Below, in pieces: positions 24,454 through 39,781 of a DNA stretch of 40,648 bases. The notes under the pieces were generated by a model that saw only the letters and a list, made by a program, of their open reading frames with translations, was not told the DNA's origin and made no database searches. Where the stretch lies: assembly GCA_018304105.1 (NCBI GenBank), contig JAGVWX010000005.1, positions 1-40,648 of the forward strand. The letters are read 5' to 3'. Both the position numbers and the translations under genes were made by a program. The DNA comes from Candidatus Pacearchaeota archaeon (lineage in GTDB: Archaea > Nanobdellota > Nanobdellia > Pacearchaeales > GW2011-AR1). The stretch's first letter is position 1. Each line of letters begins with the position of its first letter.

Positions 24454-25791
24454 ATGTTCAAGTTCTTGAAAGAAAAGCTAAGCGGATGGTTTGGGAAGAA
24501 GGAAGAACCAGAGAAGAAAAAATCTTCTGTAAGCAAGAGTGCCCACCCTGCTCGCGACCACGCTCCGCAACATGCTGAAAAATACTCGTCGCCTAATCGC
24601 TCGCCCGCCCTAAAAGGAAAGCAAAAGAAGATAAAAGAAAAGAAGCCAGTTGAGGAAAAACTGAAGAAGAAAACAGGGAAGATAAAGAAAGAGAAGAGGG
24701 GCGAATCAAAAGGCGCGGAAGAAAAGATTATAGAAGAAGAATTCAAGAGGGAGAAGGTTGATGCGAGGGCCGAGGAACTTGAAGAAGAAATTGAAGAAAA
24801 AGAAATCGAATGGGCGAAGGAGAAAGACGAGCCTCTGAAGAAATGGGAAGTTAAAGAAGAAGTTGAAAAGGTGCTGCGCGAGGACCGCCCGGATGTGGCT
24901 GTTCCTGAGAAGATGGGATTTTTTGGATTTTTGGCGAGGAAGCTCACGACTTCGGAGTTGAATGAAGAAGACTTTAACGCAGGGTTTGATGAACTTGAAA
25001 TGACTCTGCTGGAAAATAATGTTGCGCTTGGAGTTGTTGACAAAATTCGAGAGGGGTTGAAGAAAGAGCTTGTTGGGAAAAGATACGGGAAGAAAGAAGT
25101 TGAAGGAAAGATTCTTTCTGCGCTGAAGAAGTCGATTGATGTTTTGCTCATTGAGCCGCCAAATTTGATTGAACAGATAAGGGCGAAGAAAGACTCTCCG
25201 TTTGTTATTTTGTTTTTTGGGATTAACGGAAGCGGAAAGACGACGTCGATTGCAAAGCTTGCCTGGAAGCTGAAGAAACTTGGCTTGGAACCGGTGCTTG
25301 CGGCGGGAGATACATTCAGGGCGGCTTCGATTGAACAGCTTGAGACTCACGCTCAGAAAATTGGAGTTGAAATTGTAAAAGGAGAGTACGGGAAAGACCC
25401 TGCTTCAGTGGCATTTGACGCGATTGCTTATGCGAAGAAGAACCACAAGAAAGTTGTTTTGATTGATACTGCAGGAAGAATGTATACGAAACAGAATTTG
25501 ATGAAGGAGATGGAGAAAATTGTGAAAGTCTCAAAGCCCGATTTGAAAATATTTGTTGGGGAATCGATAACTGGGAATGATGCGACGGAGCAGGCAAGGA
25601 TGTTTGAAGAAACTGCAGGAATTGATGGAATAATTCTTAGCAAGGCAGATGTTGATGAAAAGGCTGGAACTATTTTAAGCGTTAGCTTTGTGACCGGAAA
25701 GCCAATTTATTTTTTAGGAGTCGGGCAGGAATATGGGGACTTACAGGAGTTTAGCAAGAAGAGTGTTTTGAAGGGGCTGGGACTGGAGTGA
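24454..25791 (+). CDS. ftsY: SRP receptor FtsY
   Basis: 445 residues. A long Lys/Glu-rich acidic-basic N-terminal region (1-150) precedes the NG GTPase: GINGSGKTT (256-264, G1), DTFRA (286-290), IDTAGR (337-342, G3), SKADVDEKAG (396-405, G4) and GQEYGDLQEF near the end. FtsY docks SRP54-bound ribosomes at the membrane; srp54 lies 1.8 kb downstream. The N-terminal region carries a foreign-looking in-frame peptide (about residues 30-54, HPARDHA ... YSSPNRSPALK) coded by a GC-rich 71-bp repeat that also occurs in bud32. A TATA-like TTTTATAAAT near 24425 suits ATG 24454. Confidence 0.95.
   Translation: MFKFLKEKLSGWFGKKEEPEKKKSSVSKSAHPARDHAPQHAEKYSSPNRSPALKGKQKKIKEKKPVEEKLKKKTGKIKKEKRGESKGAEEKIIEEEFKREKVDARAEELEEEIEEKEIEWAKEKDEPLKKWEVKEEVEKVLREDRPDVAVPEKMGFFGFLARKLTTSELNEEDFNAGFDELEMTLLENNVALGVVDKIREGLKKELVGKRYGKKEVEGKILSALKKSIDVLLIEPPNLIEQIRAKKDSPFVILFFGINGSGKTTSIAKLAWKLKKLGLEPVLAAGDTFRAASIEQLETHAQKIGVEIVKGEYGKDPASVAFDAIAYAKKNHKKVVLIDTAGRMYTKQNLMKEMEKIVKVSKPDLKIFVGESITGNDATEQARMFEETAGIDGIILSKADVDEKAGTILSVSFVTGKPIYFLGVGQEYGDLQEFSKKSVLKGLGLE
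24541..24611 (+). repeat. GC-rich 71-bp element, copy A, in frame in ftsY
   Basis: Begins GCCCACCCTGCTCGCGACCA and ends AATCGCTCGCCCGCCCT. Same length as copy B in bud32 (30149-30219), with near-identical ends and a variable middle of about 15 bases. It contributes the peptide AHPARDHA...YSSPNRSPAL. Its base composition is far more GC-rich than the surrounding gene. Confidence 0.9.
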
Positions 25792-25794
25792 AAT

Positions 25795-26268
25795 TTATTG
25801 AGTGACACAAGAAATTTTGACATCGCTTTCCTTGCATGTCTTTTTATTTCCCTCTTCGTCGCTGACCACTATTGCTACATTTGCCACTAGTTCTGAAGGG
25901 GCTATTGTGGCGTTTTCGTATGAAACAGTTATCTTCTGAGTATCTGTTATGGGGCCGTTGTATCTGGATATGAACATTGAATATGTTTGCGGGTCTTCTA
26001 GTATTGCTATAGCTTCGCTTGCTTCGCCCTGCGACACGCGGAATGTTACATCTGCAGTCTTGCGCGTTTCGTCTAATGTACAAGAAATAACTTCTGCATC
26101 GGTTTGGAAACAAAGGCTGTCCAAGACTGCTCTATTTTGTGCTGTGATGATTTCTTCCCGGTCAGAATCGAATTGTTTGCTAACAAGAAAACTTGCGCCA
26201 ACAACCAGAATGATTAATACAATTAATGCTATCAAAATAATTGCTAACGTGCCCAGCCCTCTTTTCAT
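25795..26268 (-). CDS. Pilin-like/single-span exported protein
   Basis: 157 residues: MKRGLGT followed by one long hydrophobic helix (8-30, LAIILIALIVLIILVVGASFL), then a soluble beta-rich domain with four Cys (CFQTDAEVISC, KKTCKESDVKISC). The short basic leader with a Gly before a hydrophobic H-domain recalls archaeal type IV pilin-like proteins, but the class III processing site is not clearly seen, so a simple membrane anchor is equally possible. It converges with ftsY, three bases apart, and has a TATA-like element near 26288-26298 on its own strand. Confidence 0.6.
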   Translation of the reverse strand: MKRGLGTLAIILIALIVLIILVVGASFLVSKQFDSDREEIITAQNRAVLDSLCFQTDAEVISCTLDETRKTADVTFRVSQGEASEAIAILEDPQTYSMFISRYNGPITDTQKITVSYENATIAPSELVANVAIVVSDEEGNKKTCKESDVKISCVTQ

Positions 26269-26356
26269 TTTATCATAAAAATTGCAGGATATTTATATTT
26301 TAGCAATGTTGCGTTTGGAGTGAAGATATATTTTTATAATTGGACTTGTTCTTGAG

Positions 26357-26722
26357 ATGATGGATGAAAAAGTTTCTTCATTGAGGGAATATCAGGAGCT
26401 TTGCAAGGCGACGGCGAAGAAGTTTGAGAGCAAAGAGAAAGAAATTATGACTTGGGGGCTTGGAATTGCTGGAGAAGCGGGGGATGTCGCAGGGTGCATA
26501 AAGAAGACGTTCGCGCACGGCAACGACCAGAAAGAAGGGATAAAGGAAAACATAGGAGATACTTTATGGTATACAGCGATGATTTGCAATTTTTTTGAGT
26601 GGGACATGCAGGAAATTCTGAACGGCAATATTGAAAAGTTGAAAAAGAGATATCCAAAAGGATTTACGACGGAGAACGCAAAGCGAGAGAATAAAAGAAT
26701 TGATTGGAACGAGAAGAGTTAG
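26357..26722 (+). CDS. MazG-family nucleotide pyrophosphohydrolase
   Basis: 121 residues. WGLGIAGEAGDVAGCIKKTFAHG (about 30-52) and KENIGDTLWYTAMICNFF (about 62-80) are the two helices with the acidic metal ligands of the MazG/all-alpha NTP-PPase fold (EAGD and ENIGD); the family hydrolyses non-canonical or excess nucleoside triphosphates. It differs from the other member at 17132-17521 in sequence type. A TATA-like TTTTTATAAT (about 26328) is about 25 bases before the start; ATG 26360 is an alternative. The 3' end overlaps the convergent membrane gene by four bases. Confidence 0.88.
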   Translation: MMDEKVSSLREYQELCKATAKKFESKEKEIMTWGLGIAGEAGDVAGCIKKTFAHGNDQKEGIKENIGDTLWYTAMICNFFEWDMQEILNGNIEKLKKRYPKGFTTENAKRENKRIDWNEKS

Positions 26723-26994
26723 TTATGTCTCTTTCCAATTTCTGTGCCTTTGTGCCATTGAATGTGACCGTGCAGAATCTTGTCTACATTCGCTAACTTG
26801 CTACTGATGTTTATGATGTATCCAGCAAGACCGAAGATTAATGTAATTATAAGAATAAGCAAAGCAAGAGTAATGTCCTGAATGTCCCACGAGCCCCCTA
26901 AAATGATTTTAATTAATTGGTAAAGGATTAGGACTATAAGCAATATGGACAATGCCAACGCTATTGCAGATATTACGCCTAATATTTTTCCCAT
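26719..26994 (-). CDS. 91-aa membrane protein, third gene of RHH operon
   Basis: Two hydrophobic spans (about residues 5-30 and 40-62: GVISAIALALSILLIVLILY and TLALLILIITLIFGLAGYII) and a hydrophilic tail ending GTEIGKRHN. Its ATG overlaps the TAA of the 34-aa peptide gene (TAATG), so it is the last of three coupled genes headed by an RHH protein. No family recognised. Confidence 0.6.
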   Translation of the reverse strand: MGKILGVISAIALALSILLIVLILYQLIKIILGGSWDIQDITLALLILIITLIFGLAGYIINISSKLANVDKILHGHIQWHKGTEIGKRHN

Positions 26995-27098
26995 TATGTG
27001 TAAAGCCGTTGAATAAGCCAGACAGAAGAAAGGATTAGAAGTAATGCTAGCAAGACCATAATTATCTTCAAAAGTGAATTAATGATTTTATTTTCCAT
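26994..27098 (-). CDS. 34-aa membrane peptide
   Basis: MENKIINSLLKIIMVLLALL and on to WLIQRLYT: a single hydrophobic helix of about 20 residues. Both ends overlap neighbours by TAATG (upstream stop with this ATG at 27098, this stop with the next ATG at 26994), strong evidence that it is translated although it is very short. Role unknown; a small hydrophobic partner of the next membrane protein is possible. Confidence 0.6.
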   Translation of the reverse strand: MENKIINSLLKIIMVLLALLLILSSVWLIQRLYT

Positions 27099-27286
27099 TA
27101 GCAATACTTATGCATCGGATGAGTTTCTTTATTTGAATGTGAGGCTATTTCTGGGGAGTTTATTTTTTCAAGTTCTTGCTTGATGAAATTTTCGACTTTT
27201 TTTGACATGCTGACTCCGTTCTTCTTGCAATGGTCGGAGAATTGTTTGTAAACTTCTTTGTCAAGGTTGAATGTTTTTAATGCCAA
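27098..27286 (-). CDS. Ribbon-helix-helix small DNA-binding protein
   Basis: 62 residues from TTG 27286, chosen because GGGAGG at 27293-27298 (minus strand) sits six bases upstream; TTG 27304 and GTG 27292 are alternatives. MALKTFNLDKEVYKQF gives the antiparallel strand and first helix, and GVSMSKKVENFIKQEL the second helix of an RHH fold (CopG/Arc-like). It probably binds DNA as a dimer, perhaps at the palindrome at 27398-27413 upstream of its own operon. The tail (NSPEIASHSNKETHPMHKYC) is unstructured with His/Cys. Confidence 0.65.
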   Translation of the reverse strand: MALKTFNLDKEVYKQFSDHCKKNGVSMSKKVENFIKQELEKINSPEIASHSNKETHPMHKYC

Positions 27287-27397
27287 GCCCACCCTCCCGC
27301 CCAAGATATGGACGGATTTTGGTATTAATTAAAGTTATTTAATGTTAATAAACTTTTCTCAAATTTTAAGTTGAAGGAGGGTTATTTAATGTTATTT

Positions 27398-27413
27398 AAG
27401 GTTTATTAACCTT
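27398..27413. promoter_or_regulatory. Candidate operator palindrome
   Basis: AAGGTTTATTAACCTT, 6-bp perfect arms, lies between the RHH operon (minus) and the srp54 region (plus). A repeated word GTTATTTAATGTTA occurs at about 27331 and 27381 beside it. A site for the RHH protein is a reasonable guess only. Confidence 0.4.
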
Positions 27414-27510
27414 GGTTCGTTTGAGGAGAATTATGAAAGAGAAATAAGGTACGGGACTAACAAGCAGCAACCACAAACTTCTTAATAGTTAGATTTCTTG
27501 GATTTCATAT

Positions 27511-27616
27511 CATAATGCTAATGCAAAATAAAATACAGATAAGCAAAATCAAGATGGGAATTTCATAATGCTAATGCAAAATAAAATACAGATAAGCAAA
27601 ATCAAGATAGGAATTT
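27511..27616 (+). repeat. 53-bp tandem duplication before srp54
   Basis: Two adjacent copies (27511-27563, 27564-27616) differing at one base (gatggg versus gatagg). The period is 53 = 18 codons minus one shared base, exactly what preserves a chain of stop-start overlaps. The following CATAATGG of srp54 continues the pattern. Confidence 0.95.
27515..27568 (+). CDS. Upstream ORF 1 of srp54 (17 aa)
   Basis: Encodes MLMQNKIQISKIKMGIS. Its TAA shares a base with the ATG of uORF 2 (TAATG). A TATA-like TTCTTAATAG near 27480-27489 is about 30 bases upstream, so this ATG may be the first codon of a leaderless transcript. Part of a 53-bp tandem duplication. Translation is likely only if the upstream TSS is correct. 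Confidence 0.55.
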   Translation: MLMQNKIQISKIKMGIS

Positions 27617-27621
27617 CATAA
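27568..27621 (+). CDS. Upstream ORF 2 of srp54 (17 aa)
   Basis: Second copy of the tandem repeat, encoding MLMQNKIQISKIKIGIS (one Met to Ile change). Its stop shares one base with the srp54 ATG at 27621, so ribosomes ending here would be placed on the srp54 start. The coupling suggests translational control of SRP54; this is inference from layout. Confidence 0.55.
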   Translation: MLMQNKIQISKIKIGIS

Positions 27622-28985
27622 TGGTACTTGAAAAACTCGGAAACGTGCTTCGGAAGGTTACGGATAAAATAGCGAATGCCGTGTTTCTCGATAAGAATCT
27701 TGTTGATGGAATTGTTAAGGAACTGCAGAGGAGCTTGATTGAAGCAGATGTGAACGTTCAACTTGTTATGAAATTATCTAAGAAGATAAAGCAAGAAGCA
27801 TTTGACGAAAGGATTAAGGGCGTTGAAAAGAAAGAGCATATAATCAAACTGCTGCATGATGAACTGCTCAAGATCTTGGGAAAGAAGAGAGAGCTGGTTT
27901 TGGGGAAGAACGAAGTTTGGTTGATGGTTGGGCTTTATGGGGCAGGAAAGACGACGACGATTGGGAAACTTGCTTCGTACTATGCAAAACGAGGAAGGAA
28001 AGTTTGCGCGATTGGACTTGACGTTCATAGGCCTGCGGCGCCGGAACAATTGAGACAGGTTTGCAAGAAAGTAAATGTTGAATGTTTCATTTCTCTTGGA
28101 GAAAAAGATCCATTGAAAATTTGGAAAAAATACGAGAAAGAAATGAAGGAATATAATTTGATTATTGTTGACACTGCGGGGAGAGATGCGCTTGATGAAG
28201 AACTTGTTGATGAAATCAAAAAGATATCTAAGACGGTAAAGGCAACGGAAAGCTTTTTAGTGATGCAGGCAGATATTGGGCAGGCAGCGAAGAAACAGGC
28301 GCAGGCTTTCAAGGAGGCGGCGGGAGTGACTGGAGTTATAATTACAAGGATGGATTCGACGGCAAAGGCGGGAGGAGCTTTGACTGCGTGCGCGGAAGTT
28401 GAAGCGCCAGTTGTGTTTATTGGAACGGGAGAAACGCCGGCAGATTTGGAGACGTTTGACCCAGAATCTTTCTTATCGCGACTTTTGGGAATGGGAGATT
28501 TGAAAGGACTGATGGAAAAAATTCATAGCGTGATGGACGAGAAAGAAATCGAGAGACAGCAGAAGAAATTAACGGAAGGGAAATTTACCTTGAGAGATTT
28601 GCAGACGCAGTTGGAAAGCATGGAAGGACTTGGGAGTATGGATAAAATTATGGGAATGATTCCCGGGTTTGGGAAAGTAAAGGAGAAAATTGGGGAAGGG
28701 GCTTTGGAAGGACAGCAAGCGAAAGTTAAGAAATGGAAACACGCGATAAATTCTATGACTCCTGAAGAAATTGAGAATCCTGAAATTTTGGAGAAGCAGA
28801 CGAACAGATTGAAGAGGATTGCCCACGGAAGTGGATGTACGACTTCAGATATTAGAATGCTGATTAAACAATGGAAAATGCTGAATGAAATGATTAAGTC
28901 GCAATCGCAGCTTGGCGAGGGCAAAATGGACCAGAAGACGATGATGAAGTTGGCGAGGAAATTTGGAAAAAAGGTGCGCCTTTAG
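27621..28985 (+). CDS. srp54: Signal recognition particle GTPase SRP54
   Basis: 454 residues with N domain (1-85), GTPase G domain (GLYGAGKTTT at 104-113, DVHRPAAPEQL, IIVDTAGRD, TRMDSTAKAGGAL) and Met-rich M domain (about 295-445: MGDLKGLM, MEGLGSMDKIMGMIPGFG, MTPEEIENPEIL, RIAHGSGCTTSDI), the last holding the 7S RNA-binding helix-turn-helix. SRP54 binds signal peptides emerging from the ribosome and passes them to FtsY, encoded upstream. P-loop GLYGAGKT differs slightly from the common GLQGSGKT. Start ATG overlaps the preceding 17-codon uORF. Confidence 0.97.
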   Translation: MVLEKLGNVLRKVTDKIANAVFLDKNLVDGIVKELQRSLIEADVNVQLVMKLSKKIKQEAFDERIKGVEKKEHIIKLLHDELLKILGKKRELVLGKNEVWLMVGLYGAGKTTTIGKLASYYAKRGRKVCAIGLDVHRPAAPEQLRQVCKKVNVECFISLGEKDPLKIWKKYEKEMKEYNLIIVDTAGRDALDEELVDEIKKISKTVKATESFLVMQADIGQAAKKQAQAFKEAAGVTGVIITRMDSTAKAGGALTACAEVEAPVVFIGTGETPADLETFDPESFLSRLLGMGDLKGLMEKIHSVMDEKEIERQQKKLTEGKFTLRDLQTQLESMEGLGSMDKIMGMIPGFGKVKEKIGEGALEGQQAKVKKWKHAINSMTPEEIENPEILEKQTNRLKRIAHGSGCTTSDIRMLIKQWKMLNEMIKSQSQLGEGKMDQKTMMKLARKFGKKVRL

Positions 28986-29118
28986 CGCGCGCTCGCCACA
29001 AATGTGTCAAGCTTGAGGATGTAGGTGGGAGAATCATTTGTTAATATGCGATGTTTACAAAACCTTAAATACTTGTTAATTAATTATTATTACAAGTTGA
29101 TAACTAAAGACTACGAAT
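28986..29118. promoter_or_regulatory. Promoter and inverted repeat before wHTH gene
   Basis: A TATA-like CCTTAAATAC at 29063-29072 is followed at once by ACTTGT (29071-29076) ... ACAAGT (29092-29097), an inverted repeat over the expected transcription start. That position suits an operator, possibly for the wHTH product of the next gene. The first part (28986-29010) is GC-rich (GCGCGCGCTCGCC). Confidence 0.4.
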
Positions 29119-29403
29119 ATGGCTGTGAAAAAAATGGCGCAGAAAAATAAGGCAACTCATTGGCCGACGCTGAATACCGTGATTATGGTAGAAGAAACTC
29201 TGAAGAAGATGGAAGGAAGCGTGATGTCGGTTGCAGAGATAAAGAGAAAACTGCCGAGGCAGGTTAATCATGCGACTCTGATGCTTGTCCTGAAGTATCT
29301 GGAGGAGAGCAATAAGATTTATGTTTCTTTGAAGGGAGTTACATGGATTCACAATCCGTCTTTGAAACTTAGGAAAGCGATAGCAAACGGTTTTGAAATA
29401 TGA
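29119..29403 (+). CDS. Small winged-helix protein
   Basis: 94 residues. After a Lys-rich start (MAVKKMAQKNKATHW) comes a wHTH: LNTVIMVEETLKKM, SVMSVAEIKRKLPRQVNHATLMLVLKYLEESNKI (recognition region) and YVSLKGVTWIHNP (wing). It overlaps the next gene (truncated RelE-like) by ATGA, an antitoxin-toxin-like arrangement, so it may be, or derive from, an antitoxin-type regulator; equally it may be a stand-alone regulator. Confidence 0.6.
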   Translation: MAVKKMAQKNKATHWPTLNTVIMVEETLKKMEGSVMSVAEIKRKLPRQVNHATLMLVLKYLEESNKIYVSLKGVTWIHNPSLKLRKAIANGFEI

Positions 29404-29588
29404 AAACTTTCAGGATTGTCCTGTCTGATGAAGCAAGAGAAGTTTTTGAACATTTGAATAAAGGGGCGGTTCATTCAAAAACTGATCGGATGATTCTTAA
29501 CGGAATTAAACAGAAGATAGAACTGATAAGACAAGATATTGTTGACCACAAAGATTATAATAAACTGTTTGGCTATCGGAAAAGATGA
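29400..29588 (+). CDS. Shortened RelE/ParE-like protein
   Basis: 62 residues. MKTFRIVLSDEAREVFEHLN and MILNGIKQKIELIRQDI look like the first strand and two helices of RelE/ParE-type toxins of archaea, but the protein ends at GYRKR before the C-terminal strands with catalytic residues, so toxicity is unlikely. Whether this is a decayed toxin or a kept short form is unknown. Overlaps the neighbours at both ends (ATGA at 29400 and at 29585), so it is in the bud32 transcription unit. Confidence 0.55.
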   Translation: MKTFRIVLSDEAREVFEHLNKGAVHSKTDRMILNGIKQKIELIRQDIVDHKDYNKLFGYRKR

Positions 29589-30508
29589 AAGAAAAACTTA
29601 TAGCTCAGGGAGCGGAGGCAGTTTTGATTAAGAAAAAGGCGAGTACGGCGCAATTGCTCGCCGATAATCGCGATGCTCTTTCGGCTCGACATATTCAGGG
29701 CTCGCTCCGCTCGCTTACCCGCTCGGCGCCGCAGTTCATAGTTTTGAAACGCCGAGTTCGAAAAGGATATCGAATTGCTGAAATGGATGAGAAGATTAGA
29801 AAGTTGAGGACGCGGAGCGAGGCGAAGCTGCTTGAGAAAGCGGGGAAAATAATTTCTGTGCCGAAGGTTTTGAAAGTTGATGAGAAGAGCAAAGAGATAG
29901 ATATGGAATTTATCTCTGGGGAGAAGTTGTCTGATAAACTTAATGGGATGAAAAATTGGAAGGACGTCTGTTATGAGATTGGGAAGAACATTGCTCTCTT
30001 GCATGACGCTGGAATAATTCATGGAGATTTAACGACAAGCAATATGATTTGGAAATTGGACTCGCAAGCGAGTCTTAATGACTCGGCTCGTTCCACTCGC
30101 AAATTATCATCCCAACCCGCCAGACCAAAGAGTGTTTCTGTTGCTGGTGCCCACCCTGCTCGCGACCATGCTCAGAAACCATATCTAAAATACTCATCGC
30201 CTAATCGCTCGCCCGCCCTGAAACATATCGATAAGAAATTATCTAACCGCAAGGTGTCTACATCTCAAGAATATGGTAGATTATATTTTATTGATTTTGG
30301 ATTGGGATTTGCTAACGGCCGCGTGGAAGATAAAGCAGTTGATATTTATTTGATTAAAGAAGCGCTTGAAGCGAAGCATTTTTTACATTTTGAGAAATTT
30401 TTTAAGGTGGTTTTGGAAGGTTACAAGAAAACTTCGAAACATGCAGCGGAGGTTTTGAAGAGATTGGAAAAGGTTGAGAAGCGAGGAAGGTATAAACAGA
30501 ATTATTGA
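29585..30508 (+). CDS. bud32: Bud32/KEOPS kinase with two in-frame insertions
   Basis: Small atypical kinase-like ATPase of the KEOPS complex, needed for t6A on ANN-decoding tRNAs. Signatures: KRRVRKGYR (56-63), MEFISGE (108-113), HGDLTTSN catalytic loop (146-153), DFGLGF (237-242), EDKAVDIYLIKEAL (248-261). Family members have about 210-230 residues; this one has 307. Extra segments: residues about 18-50, between the first strand and KRRV, and about 158-231 (74 residues) between the catalytic loop and DFG, where relatives have only a few residues. Both extra stretches are GC-rich, with unusual codons; the second contains copy B of the element found in ftsY. The frame is open throughout, so the kinase is probably still made. 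Confidence 0.9.
   Translation: MKEKLIAQGAEAVLIKKKASTAQLLADNRDALSARHIQGSLRSLTRSAPQFIVLKRRVRKGYRIAEMDEKIRKLRTRSEAKLLEKAGKIISVPKVLKVDEKSKEIDMEFISGEKLSDKLNGMKNWKDVCYEIGKNIALLHDAGIIHGDLTTSNMIWKLDSQASLNDSARSTRKLSSQPARPKSVSVAGAHPARDHAQKPYLKYSSPNRSPALKHIDKKLSNRKVSTSQEYGRLYFIDFGLGFANGRVEDKAVDIYLIKEALEAKHFLHFEKFFKVVLEGYKKTSKHAAEVLKRLEKVEKRGRYKQNY
29636..29737 (+). repeat. GC-rich in-frame insert 1 in bud32
   Basis: About 100 bases with many CTCG words (CTCGCC, GGCTCG, GGCTCGCTCCGCTCGC, CCCGCTCGG) between kinase strands where relatives have little sequence. It resembles the 71-bp element in word content (GCTCGC followed by acCCGC) but does not align cleanly, so it may be a distant or composite member. 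Confidence 0.55.
30059..30074 (+). repeat. Perfect GC-rich hairpin in bud32 insert 2
   Basis: GACTCGC AA GCGAGTC, a perfect 7-bp stem with a 2-base loop at the left edge of the 74-codon insert. ACTCGGCTCG and ACTCGC follow closely, so insert 2 seems built from more than one CTCGC-type unit. Confidence 0.75.
30149..30219 (+). repeat. GC-rich 71-bp element, copy B, in frame in bud32
   Basis: Begins GCCCACCCTGCTCGCGACCA and ends AATCGCTCGCCCGCCCT, as in ftsY copy A, in the same reading frame, giving AHPARDHA...YSSPNRSPAL. Only the 15-base middle and a few single bases differ. Confidence 0.9.
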
Positions 30509-34682: not shown

Positions 34683-34757
34683 CTGGTTCGCCTTACTCGC
34701 AACCTCGCTCGTAATTATATTAAACTTACTCTCGCAAAATTGCTCGCGCCCACATAA
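34683..34757 (+). repeat. Diverged intergenic copy D of the CTCGC element
   Basis: CTCGCAACCTCGC (34696-34708), then about 15 variable bases, then ACTTACTCTCGCAAAATTGC TCGCGCCC (about 34724-34749). This keeps the order and spacing (within one base) of the 71-bp element in ftsY and bud32 with many changes. The stretch 34654-34890 has no gene. Confidence 0.55.
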
Positions 34758-39457: not shown

Positions 39458-39781
39458 ACCTTGTTGAAAATCTTCTTGTGAATTGTTTGCTACTCGCGAC
39501 CACGCGCGAAGTATGCCAACTAAATACTCGTCGCGTAATCGCTCGCCTACCCGCCCAGATTGTTTTGACTTGCAGTTAACTGACGAAGTCGAACGATATT
39601 CTTCATTCGAAGCAGCCAACGCAAGTCAAATTATTTATCGCAAACAATTCTGATTTTCTGATAGGTTTAGGATTCCCACCCCAACTTTCGAAGCCGCCAC
39701 TCCCATCAAGATAGTAAACTCATAATTTACTTTTTCAACAGAGCTTTGTGATTAGGAAATAATTAAAAAGGCAGATTTTTA
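39458..39781. other. Intergenic containing element copy C
   Basis: 324 bases. Holds a copy of the CTCGC element (39488-39556). After it, ACGAAGTCGAACG and similar words are GC-richer than the surroundings. A TATA-like ATTAAAAAG near 39762-39770 serves ndk. No gene seen. Confidence 0.5.
39488..39556 (+). repeat. CTCGC element, intergenic copy C
   Basis: CTCGCGACCACGC (39493-39505) and AATACTCGTCGC (39523-39534) are exactly 30 bases apart, start to start, as in the ftsY copy (24551 and 24581), followed by GTAATCGCTCGCCTACCCGCCC cut here: AATCGCTCGCC, then CCCGCCC. The middle is again variable. This copy lies outside any gene. Confidence 0.85.

Follow-up and report, generated by a model that had tools for sequence, protein, structure and literature searches.

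Palindromic segments at the locus

The window, the whole 40,648-nucleotide stretch of archaeal DNA under study, carries two core genes, ftsY (24454-25791; TIGR00064) and bud32 (TIGR03724), each of which contains a GC-rich segment read in frame. As a first-pass annotation had described, the segments at 24541-24611 and 30149-30219 are of equal length, with near-identical ends, a variable middle and the same frame. The 71-bp unit delimited there has to be shortened, since the conserved unit is an imperfect palindrome of about 54 nt, CTCGC...GCTCGC, and the remainder is a C-rich flank common to the two in-gene copies. In ftsY the core palindrome spans 24551..24604 (C-rich strand +, folding G-rich strand -; CM R1, E 1.6e-11) within the N-terminal K/E-rich linker, and in bud32 it spans 30159..30212 (+; CM R1, E 7e-13) between SNMIW and LYFIDFG. 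The further copies noted at 39488-39556 and, in diverged form, at 34683-34757 are true members by CM R1 matches, with intergenic cores at 39493..39546 (+; E 3.2e-16) and 34696..34747 (+; E 3.2e-15), the fold of the latter retaining its stem through G-U pairs. Shuffling predicts 0.17 matches to GCTCGCGACCAYGCTC at three or fewer mismatches, against 5 found, and 0.00 exact matches to the 3' word, against 2 found.

Other repeat-derived segments surround these cores. Close to its N terminus, bud32 contains a second in-frame palindromic module (29639..29737, +; 99 nt, or 33 codons), and orthologue alignment marks a third segment, a AATTGGACTCGC... module, at 30050..30148 (+; approximate limits), whose motif AATTGGACTCGC has 21 intergenic copies. 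The core at 39493..39546 sits inside a composite of nested hairpin modules (39461..39747, +), the outermost arms of which are TTGTTGAAAATC (39461) and ACTTTTTCAACA (~39729-39741), followed inward by GAATTGTTTGC (39480-39490) with GCAAACAATTC (39640-39650) and, after the core, by TTTTGACTTGC (39563-39573) with GCAAGTCAAA (39621-39630). The composite element found no match among PLSDB plasmids, and the only Rfam matches in the window are tRNAs.

A multi-copy family of structured hairpins

A whole-genome search of the 1.06-Mb Nanoarchaeota/Pacearchaeota MAG (G000, 89% complete) recovered about 59 copies, which occupy 41 distinct loci, in agreement with the earlier view of a mobile, multi-copy element, and relatives of the element occur in 21 of 75 sampled genomes of the same taxonomic family. 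Core copies also form head-to-tail arrays with a 53-58-nt period, and they often lie inside larger nested hairpin modules that are likewise oriented. These outer modules recur both with and without the core; in the same genome, empty outer elements are found at C8:28740-28960 and C14:58450-58680, and a filled one at C13:37624. In the relative G001 (95% complete), five copies with an identical core occupy differing contexts, which points to recent activity of the element; for G001, G007 and G008, the sequence was taken from part of the contigs.

The palindromic nature implied by the first-pass annotation is borne out by folding and covariation. Among the copies of the studied genome, helix 1 is paired at 97.6%, with both-side changes in 8 of 10 pairs and a covariation of 0.255 against 0.151 after shuffling (0/500 shuffles). 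Among 72 distinct copies of relatives, whose alignment was fitted to the model, 96.5% of positions are paired, 9 of 10 pairs change on both sides, and covariation reaches 0.429 against 0.187. The G-rich strand gives the better fold in 45 of 49 distinct copies, by a mean of 5.1 kcal/mol, and it alone folds properly, owing to a tandem G·U step that is almost always conserved in its stem. The stem of the copy at 39493..39546 is among the two most stable (-23.9 kcal/mol; fold z -2.54 on the - strand and -2.75 on the + strand). The core is thus, in the manner of REPs, a short imperfect multi-copy palindrome with a constrained folded strand. The hairpin base is CTCGC...GCTCGC, and GT[AG]G is not present at its 5' foot. 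The two nucleotides ahead of CTCGC vary (TA 20, TG 12, AA 7, others), so that GTA or GCA falls at the 3' rather than the 5' foot of the folding strand and is not fixed. By eye, no AAC/GTT core like that of integron attC was noticed.

Orientation along the chromosome

Element orientation agrees with the contig GC skew at 41/41 loci, whatever the gene direction, and with the local third-codon-position skew at 37/37; the first-pass annotation had missed this strand lock, as it had the nesting in hairpin modules. The two flanking genes both point the same way as the element at 16 loci, both the other way at 9 and in different ways at 12. The outer modules are also strand-locked (25/25, 16/16, 15/15, 9/9 and 19/21). 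In relatives the bias of the element is looser (G001 13:4, G077 9:1, G008 18:7). A composition artefact was rejected: on the G-rich strand of the chromosome it is the C-rich strand of the element that is found, whereas strand composition alone would predict the opposite.

With GC skew as a proxy, orientation follows replication as in IS200/IS605 elements, which recapitulate replication direction and prefer the lagging-strand template (PMC5371812). Leading-strand identity was taken from GC skew alone, and highly expressed genes give a mixed polarity, the rRNA of contig C16 lying on the C-rich strand. Should the leading strand be the G-rich one, the folding strand of the element would lie on the leading-strand template, opposite to the simplest IS608-like model.

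Copies inside genes

Comparison with orthologues argues for insertion rather than a conserved domain. The core segment is missing from the FtsY orthologues of the genus, which is consistent with insertion, and the bud32 evidence is clean: the core at 30159..30212 has no counterpart at that place in the bud32 orthologues compared. The 30050..30148 segment, which received the core in G000, is variable in G006-G008 and missing in G004 and G009; the 29639..29737 module is present in G000 and G004 and not in G005-G008, and its counterpart in G004 holds a core copy in frame. The resulting pair of sites reads GCTCGCTTAC followed directly by CCGCTCGGCGCC in G000 and GCTCGCTTAC, a 47-nt core and GCTCGGCGCC in G004, a net gain of 45 nt. 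No target duplication is visible in the few empty and filled pairs compared. Such comparisons of empty with filled sites support mobility of the element, the cleanest case being this bud32 pair between two species.

Two other genes hold copies: a membrane protein (C17:42528-42581), in a frame that differs from that of the ftsY and bud32 copies, and a reverse-transcriptase gene of G006, in frame and in the opposite orientation. The shared frame reported earlier therefore holds for ftsY and bud32 and does not hold in general. Frame-preserving entry, proposed in the first-pass annotation as a property of the element, is not supported by its distribution, as 38/41 loci are intergenic and 3/41 lie in genes, in a genome that is 82.8% coding (P about 6e-26). 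This depletion, together with the differing frames and both orientations, indicates that the in-frame copies are survivors of selection; they are what selection left, not the product of a coding-adapted element.

Candidate mobilisers and alternative explanations

The element carries no transposase of its own, as had been noted; the genome as a whole does encode one, on another contig. This intact IS200-type Y1 transposase (TnpA, C17:109667-110023) has the HxH motif and the catalytic Tyr region, and it invites the classic archaeal PATE/REPtron explanation, in which the resident TnpA moves hairpins in trans. The replication-locked orientation and the lack of visible target duplication fit this explanation, as do the Y1 genes of several copy-rich relatives, including G008 with its 43 copies. 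However, the protein matches IS200 (NF033573) at 83.6 bits and the RAYT model at 21.2 bits (cut-off 80), the hairpin that follows its gene, CTCGGGGCTTTAGCCCCGAG, is of the ordinary IS-like kind and differs from the core, and no RAYT gene flanked by repeats was found, the only Y1 gene having no core within 10 kb. Core ends homologous to a resident IS605-type transposon were not found either, in an 89% complete genome from which another IS may be missing. Across 75 genomes of the family and 10 of the genus, Y1 transposases and copies do not co-occur: many genomes without copies have the enzyme, and it was not found in the copy-bearing G001 (21 copies), G005, G025, G022, G077 and G068. A Y1 gene overlooked in G001 is possible but unlikely, and the five identical copies there speak against a Y1 enzyme wherever the element is active. 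On mechanistic grounds a Y1 (HUH) transposase would be the first enzyme to suspect; on the evidence as a whole, the PATE/REPtron explanation is unlikely. A reverse transcriptase (PF00078) was also rejected as mobiliser, as it is present in the copy-free G009 and is itself an insertion victim in G006; judged by its neighbourhood, it looks like a DGR reverse transcriptase. The studied genome additionally has one phage-type tyrosine recombinase.

Three further explanations address the nature of the element itself. An element adapted to in-frame entry into coding DNA, like the Rickettsia palindromic elements (RPEs), would account for the in-frame copies in ftsY, bud32, the membrane protein, the bud32 of G004 and the reverse transcriptase of G006, and 33/50 copies are open in one frame of the C-rich strand; the intergenic preference, the differing frames and orientations and a core length that is a multiple of three in only 27/51 copies make it very improbable. 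A family of structured RNAs or transcription terminators, to which covariation with G-U pairs would be natural, has a similarly small chance, since orientation tracks strand skew and not gene direction, copies are not in excess where genes converge (4 convergent against 8 divergent cases) and the window has no Rfam match apart from tRNAs. The least credible explanation is a KOPS- or Chi-like chromosomal landmark read by a replication or segregation machine, in which case selection, and not the insertion event, would account for its orientation. The strict agreement with GC skew and the lack of core copies in certain long stretches (contigs C12, C16, C5, C10 and C18) would suit a landmark, but presence differs between orthologous sites, the core inserts into hairpin modules and forms tandem arrays, the sister species G002, G003 and G009 have few or no copies, and orientation is looser in relatives.

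Comparison with known palindromic elements

According to the excerpted account of Dyall-Smith et al. (2011, PMC3119063), the PATEs and SMR-A of Haloquadratum are archaeal, transposase-free, short elements with palindromic or inverted repeats and no target duplication. SMR-A has terminal inverted repeats, and its targets are palindromes close to the ends of PATEs and IS605-type elements; one repeat is nested in another's palindromes, a 52-bp PATE consists of termini only, and the mobilisation of SMRs is given as unexplained. The core is likewise short, palindromic, nested and without transposase, a likeness of description, and it differs from these elements, as that excerpt describes them, in its replication-strand lock and in-frame gene copies. 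The earlier view that no archaeal counterpart had been described is thus too broad, since palindromic mobile repeats are known in archaea, although it may stand for in-gene copies, of which the papers searched gave no description in archaea. The same literature search found no REP report for DPANN and no miniature inverted-repeat report for Nanoarchaeota.

Bacterial REPs and REPtrons comprise imperfect single-strand hairpins of 21-65 nt, in many copies and clusters, with occasional in-frame gene insertion (PMC6006769, PMC3733652). Unlike REPtrons with their TnpA_REP (RAYT), the core lacks the GT[AG]G foot and a flanking RAYT gene, is strictly oriented to GC skew and is nested in other hairpin modules. 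RPEs measure ~150 bp, with nearly half within ORFs (PMC10969869, citing Ogata et al.), and RPE-4 and RPE-6 correspond to CGTC-tagged repeats (PMC3733652). The likeness to RPEs drawn in the first-pass annotation holds for a palindrome without its own transposase that occurs in intergenic DNA and, in frame, in core genes unrelated to each other, and fails for the frequent ORF insertion reported for RPEs. The orientation with replication and the single-strand transposition proposed here recall IS200/IS605 (PMC5371812), but those elements encode TnpA, whereas this one has no gene of its own and the distribution of its copies does not match that of Y1 genes.

Proposed mode of movement

The 71-bp segment is probably a copy of a non-autonomous mobile palindrome of about 54 nt with a little flank, inserted as a single strand at the fork. 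The element would move in single-stranded form at replication forks, where a trans-acting protein would recognise the hairpin of one strand and join it beside a short CTCGC/GCTCGC-like target, without visible target duplication, the usual target presumably being another hairpin element or C-rich intergenic DNA. As leading and lagging synthesis would expose different strands, insertions would share a polarity relative to fork movement. Gene insertions would persist only in a linker or loop where no stop arises and the frame is kept, as may be the case in ftsY, bud32, the membrane protein and the reverse transcriptase of a relative. Counted against this proposal are the lack of an enzyme tied to the family, the weaker strand lock in relatives and the possible mismatch with the simplest IS608-like model. 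A more specific version, put forward tentatively, is that a non-Y1 fork-associated recombinase, or the replication machinery itself, copies the nested palindromic modules and inserts them single-stranded at forks; such a system would have near-absolute polarity, build matryoshka-like hairpin stacks and occasionally add peptides to essential proteins. The best reading of the element is a new strand-locked, nested archaeal form of REP/PATE-like mobile palindromes, partly RPE-like.

Implications

With this family, palindromes that code for protein segments are extended to archaea, backed by a clean pair of empty and filled bud32 sites. In genomes where no Y1 transposase is found, the family also raises the question of what protein moves the single-stranded hairpins. 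The orientation of the element mirrors chromosome strand asymmetry across the MAG of an uncultured archaeon, and the element could serve as a guide to fork direction in lineages without replication studies.

Unit, copy number and folded structure

The two 71-bp in-gene copies in ftsY (24541-24611) and bud32 (30149-30219) and the two intergenic copies (39488-39556 and 34683-34757) are present in the window as the first-pass annotation described. The equal length of the in-gene copies stands, but the conserved unit is not 71 bp; it is a core of about 54 nt, CTCGC...GCTCGC, and the C-rich extra bases that bring the length to 71 bp are flank common to both in-gene copies. Chance was excluded for the core words by word searches with shuffled controls. 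The genome-wide search for further copies that the annotation had proposed, run over all of this genome (1,055,307 bases in 23 contigs, completeness 89%; the window is its contig C19) in stretches with nhmmer iterated from five seeds, yielded about 59 core copies, and the covariance model of the core, R1, agrees with 58-59 matches. Head-to-tail core arrays with a period of 53-58 nt occur, for example at C3:11089-11306 and, in the related genome G008, at C2:2714-3059. The host is a DPANN archaeon, judging by the labels on FtsY relatives, which read Nanoarchaeota archaeon at 84-87% identity and, in one case at 61%, Candidatus Pacearchaeota.

The core is an imperfect palindrome. When 45 distinct copies are aligned, 97.6% of outer-helix cells are paired and 8 of the 10 pairs have changed on both sides; covariation scores 0.255, more than any shuffle (mean 0.151) or slid control. 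The corresponding values for 72 distinct copies from relatives, whose alignment was fitted to the model and is hence biased towards structure, are 96.5%, 9 of 10 pairs, and 0.429 versus 0.187. On the G-rich strand, two neighbouring U-G pairs predominate, one of them near-invariant, where the C-rich strand would have A-C mismatches; folding is better on the G-rich strand in 45 of 49 distinct copies, with a mean advantage of 5.1 kcal/mol. Covariation, U-G pairs and the better G-rich fold therefore identify what is conserved as a single strand, always of the same polarity, in its folded form.

In core alignments A1 and A2, the G-rich strand has, at positions 8 and 10-11 of the stem, conserved tandem U-G pairs and, close to the base, a bulged T/C, an arrangement reminiscent of the extrahelical T of IS608 hairpins. 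Apex variants such as those at C6:46902, C22:160822 and C4:3352 share the outer stem and differ greatly in the inner hairpin (CATCTTAAT...ATTGGTAATG, GTGCC...GGTGGC), a pattern that looks like apex exchange.

Nesting, mobility and range

Many core copies lie inside larger composite elements built of additional hairpins; TTGTTGAAAATC/GACTTTTTCAACA form the outermost stem, GAATTGTTTGC/GCAAACAATTC the second and TTTCGACTTGC/GCAAGTCGAA the third, among others. These outer modules are also found without the core; an empty outer element stands at C8:28740-28960 and C14:58450-58680, and the corresponding place is filled at C13:37624.

Orthologue comparison for empty sites, likewise proposed earlier, was informative for bud32. 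Its N-terminal module (29639-29737, 99 nt) is shared by this genome (G000) and its relative G004 and absent from G005-G008; within it, G004 carries a core copy and G000 none. The junction reads GCTCGCTTAC|CCGCTCGGCGCC in G000 versus GCTCGCTTAC|47 nt|GCTCGGCGCC in G004, which leaves G004 longer by a net 45 nt with the frame kept. The other bud32 core copy (30159-30212) is absent from the genus orthologues compared, as is the ftsY copy from its orthologues, a weaker comparison at a fast-evolving K/E-rich linker. In G001, five copies with an identical core stand in differing surroundings, which indicates, from sequence, recent spread. Model matches occur in 8 of 10 genomes of the genus and, at family level, in 21 of the 75 genomes sampled; among 279 genomes drawn from across the phylum and searched with a stricter threshold, they were confined to the same family.

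Orientation and strand skew

All core copies on any one G000 contig share one direction, and this direction matches the GC-skew sign at every independent locus (41/41). Agreement is also complete (37/37 loci) with local skew from third codon positions, taken from genes on both strands so that transcription effects cancel. Outer modules are likewise locked (25/25, 16/16, 15/15, 9/9 and 19/21), and element density rises with skew strength (rho 0.47, p 4e-4). The tendency is weaker in relatives (G001 13:4, G077 9:1 and G008 18:7, tandem copies being counted singly; others without clear direction), whose contigs are short and in part of uncertain skew.

Gene direction was ruled out as the cause, the neighbours of 37 intergenic loci both following the element at 16, both opposing it at 9 and being mixed at 12. 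Strand composition alone is likewise insufficient, because the element's C-rich strand sits on the G-rich chromosome strand.

Long core-free regions, several with weaker GC skew, cover contigs C5, C10, C12, C16, C18 and most of C22, possibly because they are far from an origin or terminus or because there are several origins. On C16, rRNA genes and long gene runs lie on the C-rich strand, contrary to the usual rule; GC skew may not mark fork direction here as it does in bacteria.

Copies in genes

Just 3 of the 41 loci are genic, versus 82.8% of G000 coding (P about 6e-26; coding fraction approximate, from a simple in-house hexamer caller): ftsY, bud32 and, on contig C17, a membrane-protein gene in which the reading frame differs from the other two. 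In G006, an in-frame core (C67:1989-2042) lies between conserved motifs of a reverse-transcriptase gene, probably of a diversity-generating retroelement (DGR), in orientation opposite to the ftsY and bud32 copies; G007 has a match at the same place, between two RT segments (C15:3709-3762). With genic loci so rare and frames and orientation differing, the in-frame insertions are best explained by filtering, and not, as first proposed, by a property of the element. Separately, a reverse-transcriptase remnant with an internal stop occurs at C5:16211-16576 (minus strand) in G000; G001, G003, G008 and G009 are stop-free.

Mechanism and relation to known systems

IS200/IS605 elements move as single strands, prefer the lagging-strand template and have an orientation that follows replication (PMC5371812). 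The core would move in a similar mode, which fits its constrained single-strand hairpin, fixed polarity and the absence of visible target duplication in the few empty/filled pairs. If the leading strand is the G-rich one, a choice that rRNA orientation does not decide, the folded strand would be the leading-strand template, in tension with the simplest IS608 model. The HUH-type transposase of this class (Y1) is no more than a candidate mobiliser, because the hairpin of the only IS200-type transposase in G000 differs from the core, no core lies within 10 kb of it, and Y1 presence across genomes does not track core copies. Y1 is present in many core-free genomes and was not found in G001, G005, G022, G025, G068 and G077, single absences that are not proof at completeness of 95% (G001) and 75-88% (others).

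By analogy, the core appears to work like its closest described counterparts: Haloquadratum PATEs and SMRs, bacterial REPs and Rickettsia palindromic elements (RPEs). REPs sometimes sit in genes (PMC3733652, PMC6006769); unlike a REPtron, the core lacks a GT[AG]G foot and a flanking RAYT. Nearly half of RPEs lie in ORFs (PMC10969869), and the proposed RPE likeness therefore extends to the mode of working but not to frequent coding insertion, with 3 of 41 loci genic. PATEs and SMRs are archaeal, short, transposase-free and nested (PMC3119063); unlike PATEs, core ends differ from those of the resident IS. An archaeal counterpart had been thought undescribed, which these elements contradict, although in-frame archaeal copies appear new. 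What we regard as new, within the literature searched, is that a nested palindrome system of DPANN archaea is strictly strand-locked, and that in-frame copies occur in archaea together with an empty/filled pair.
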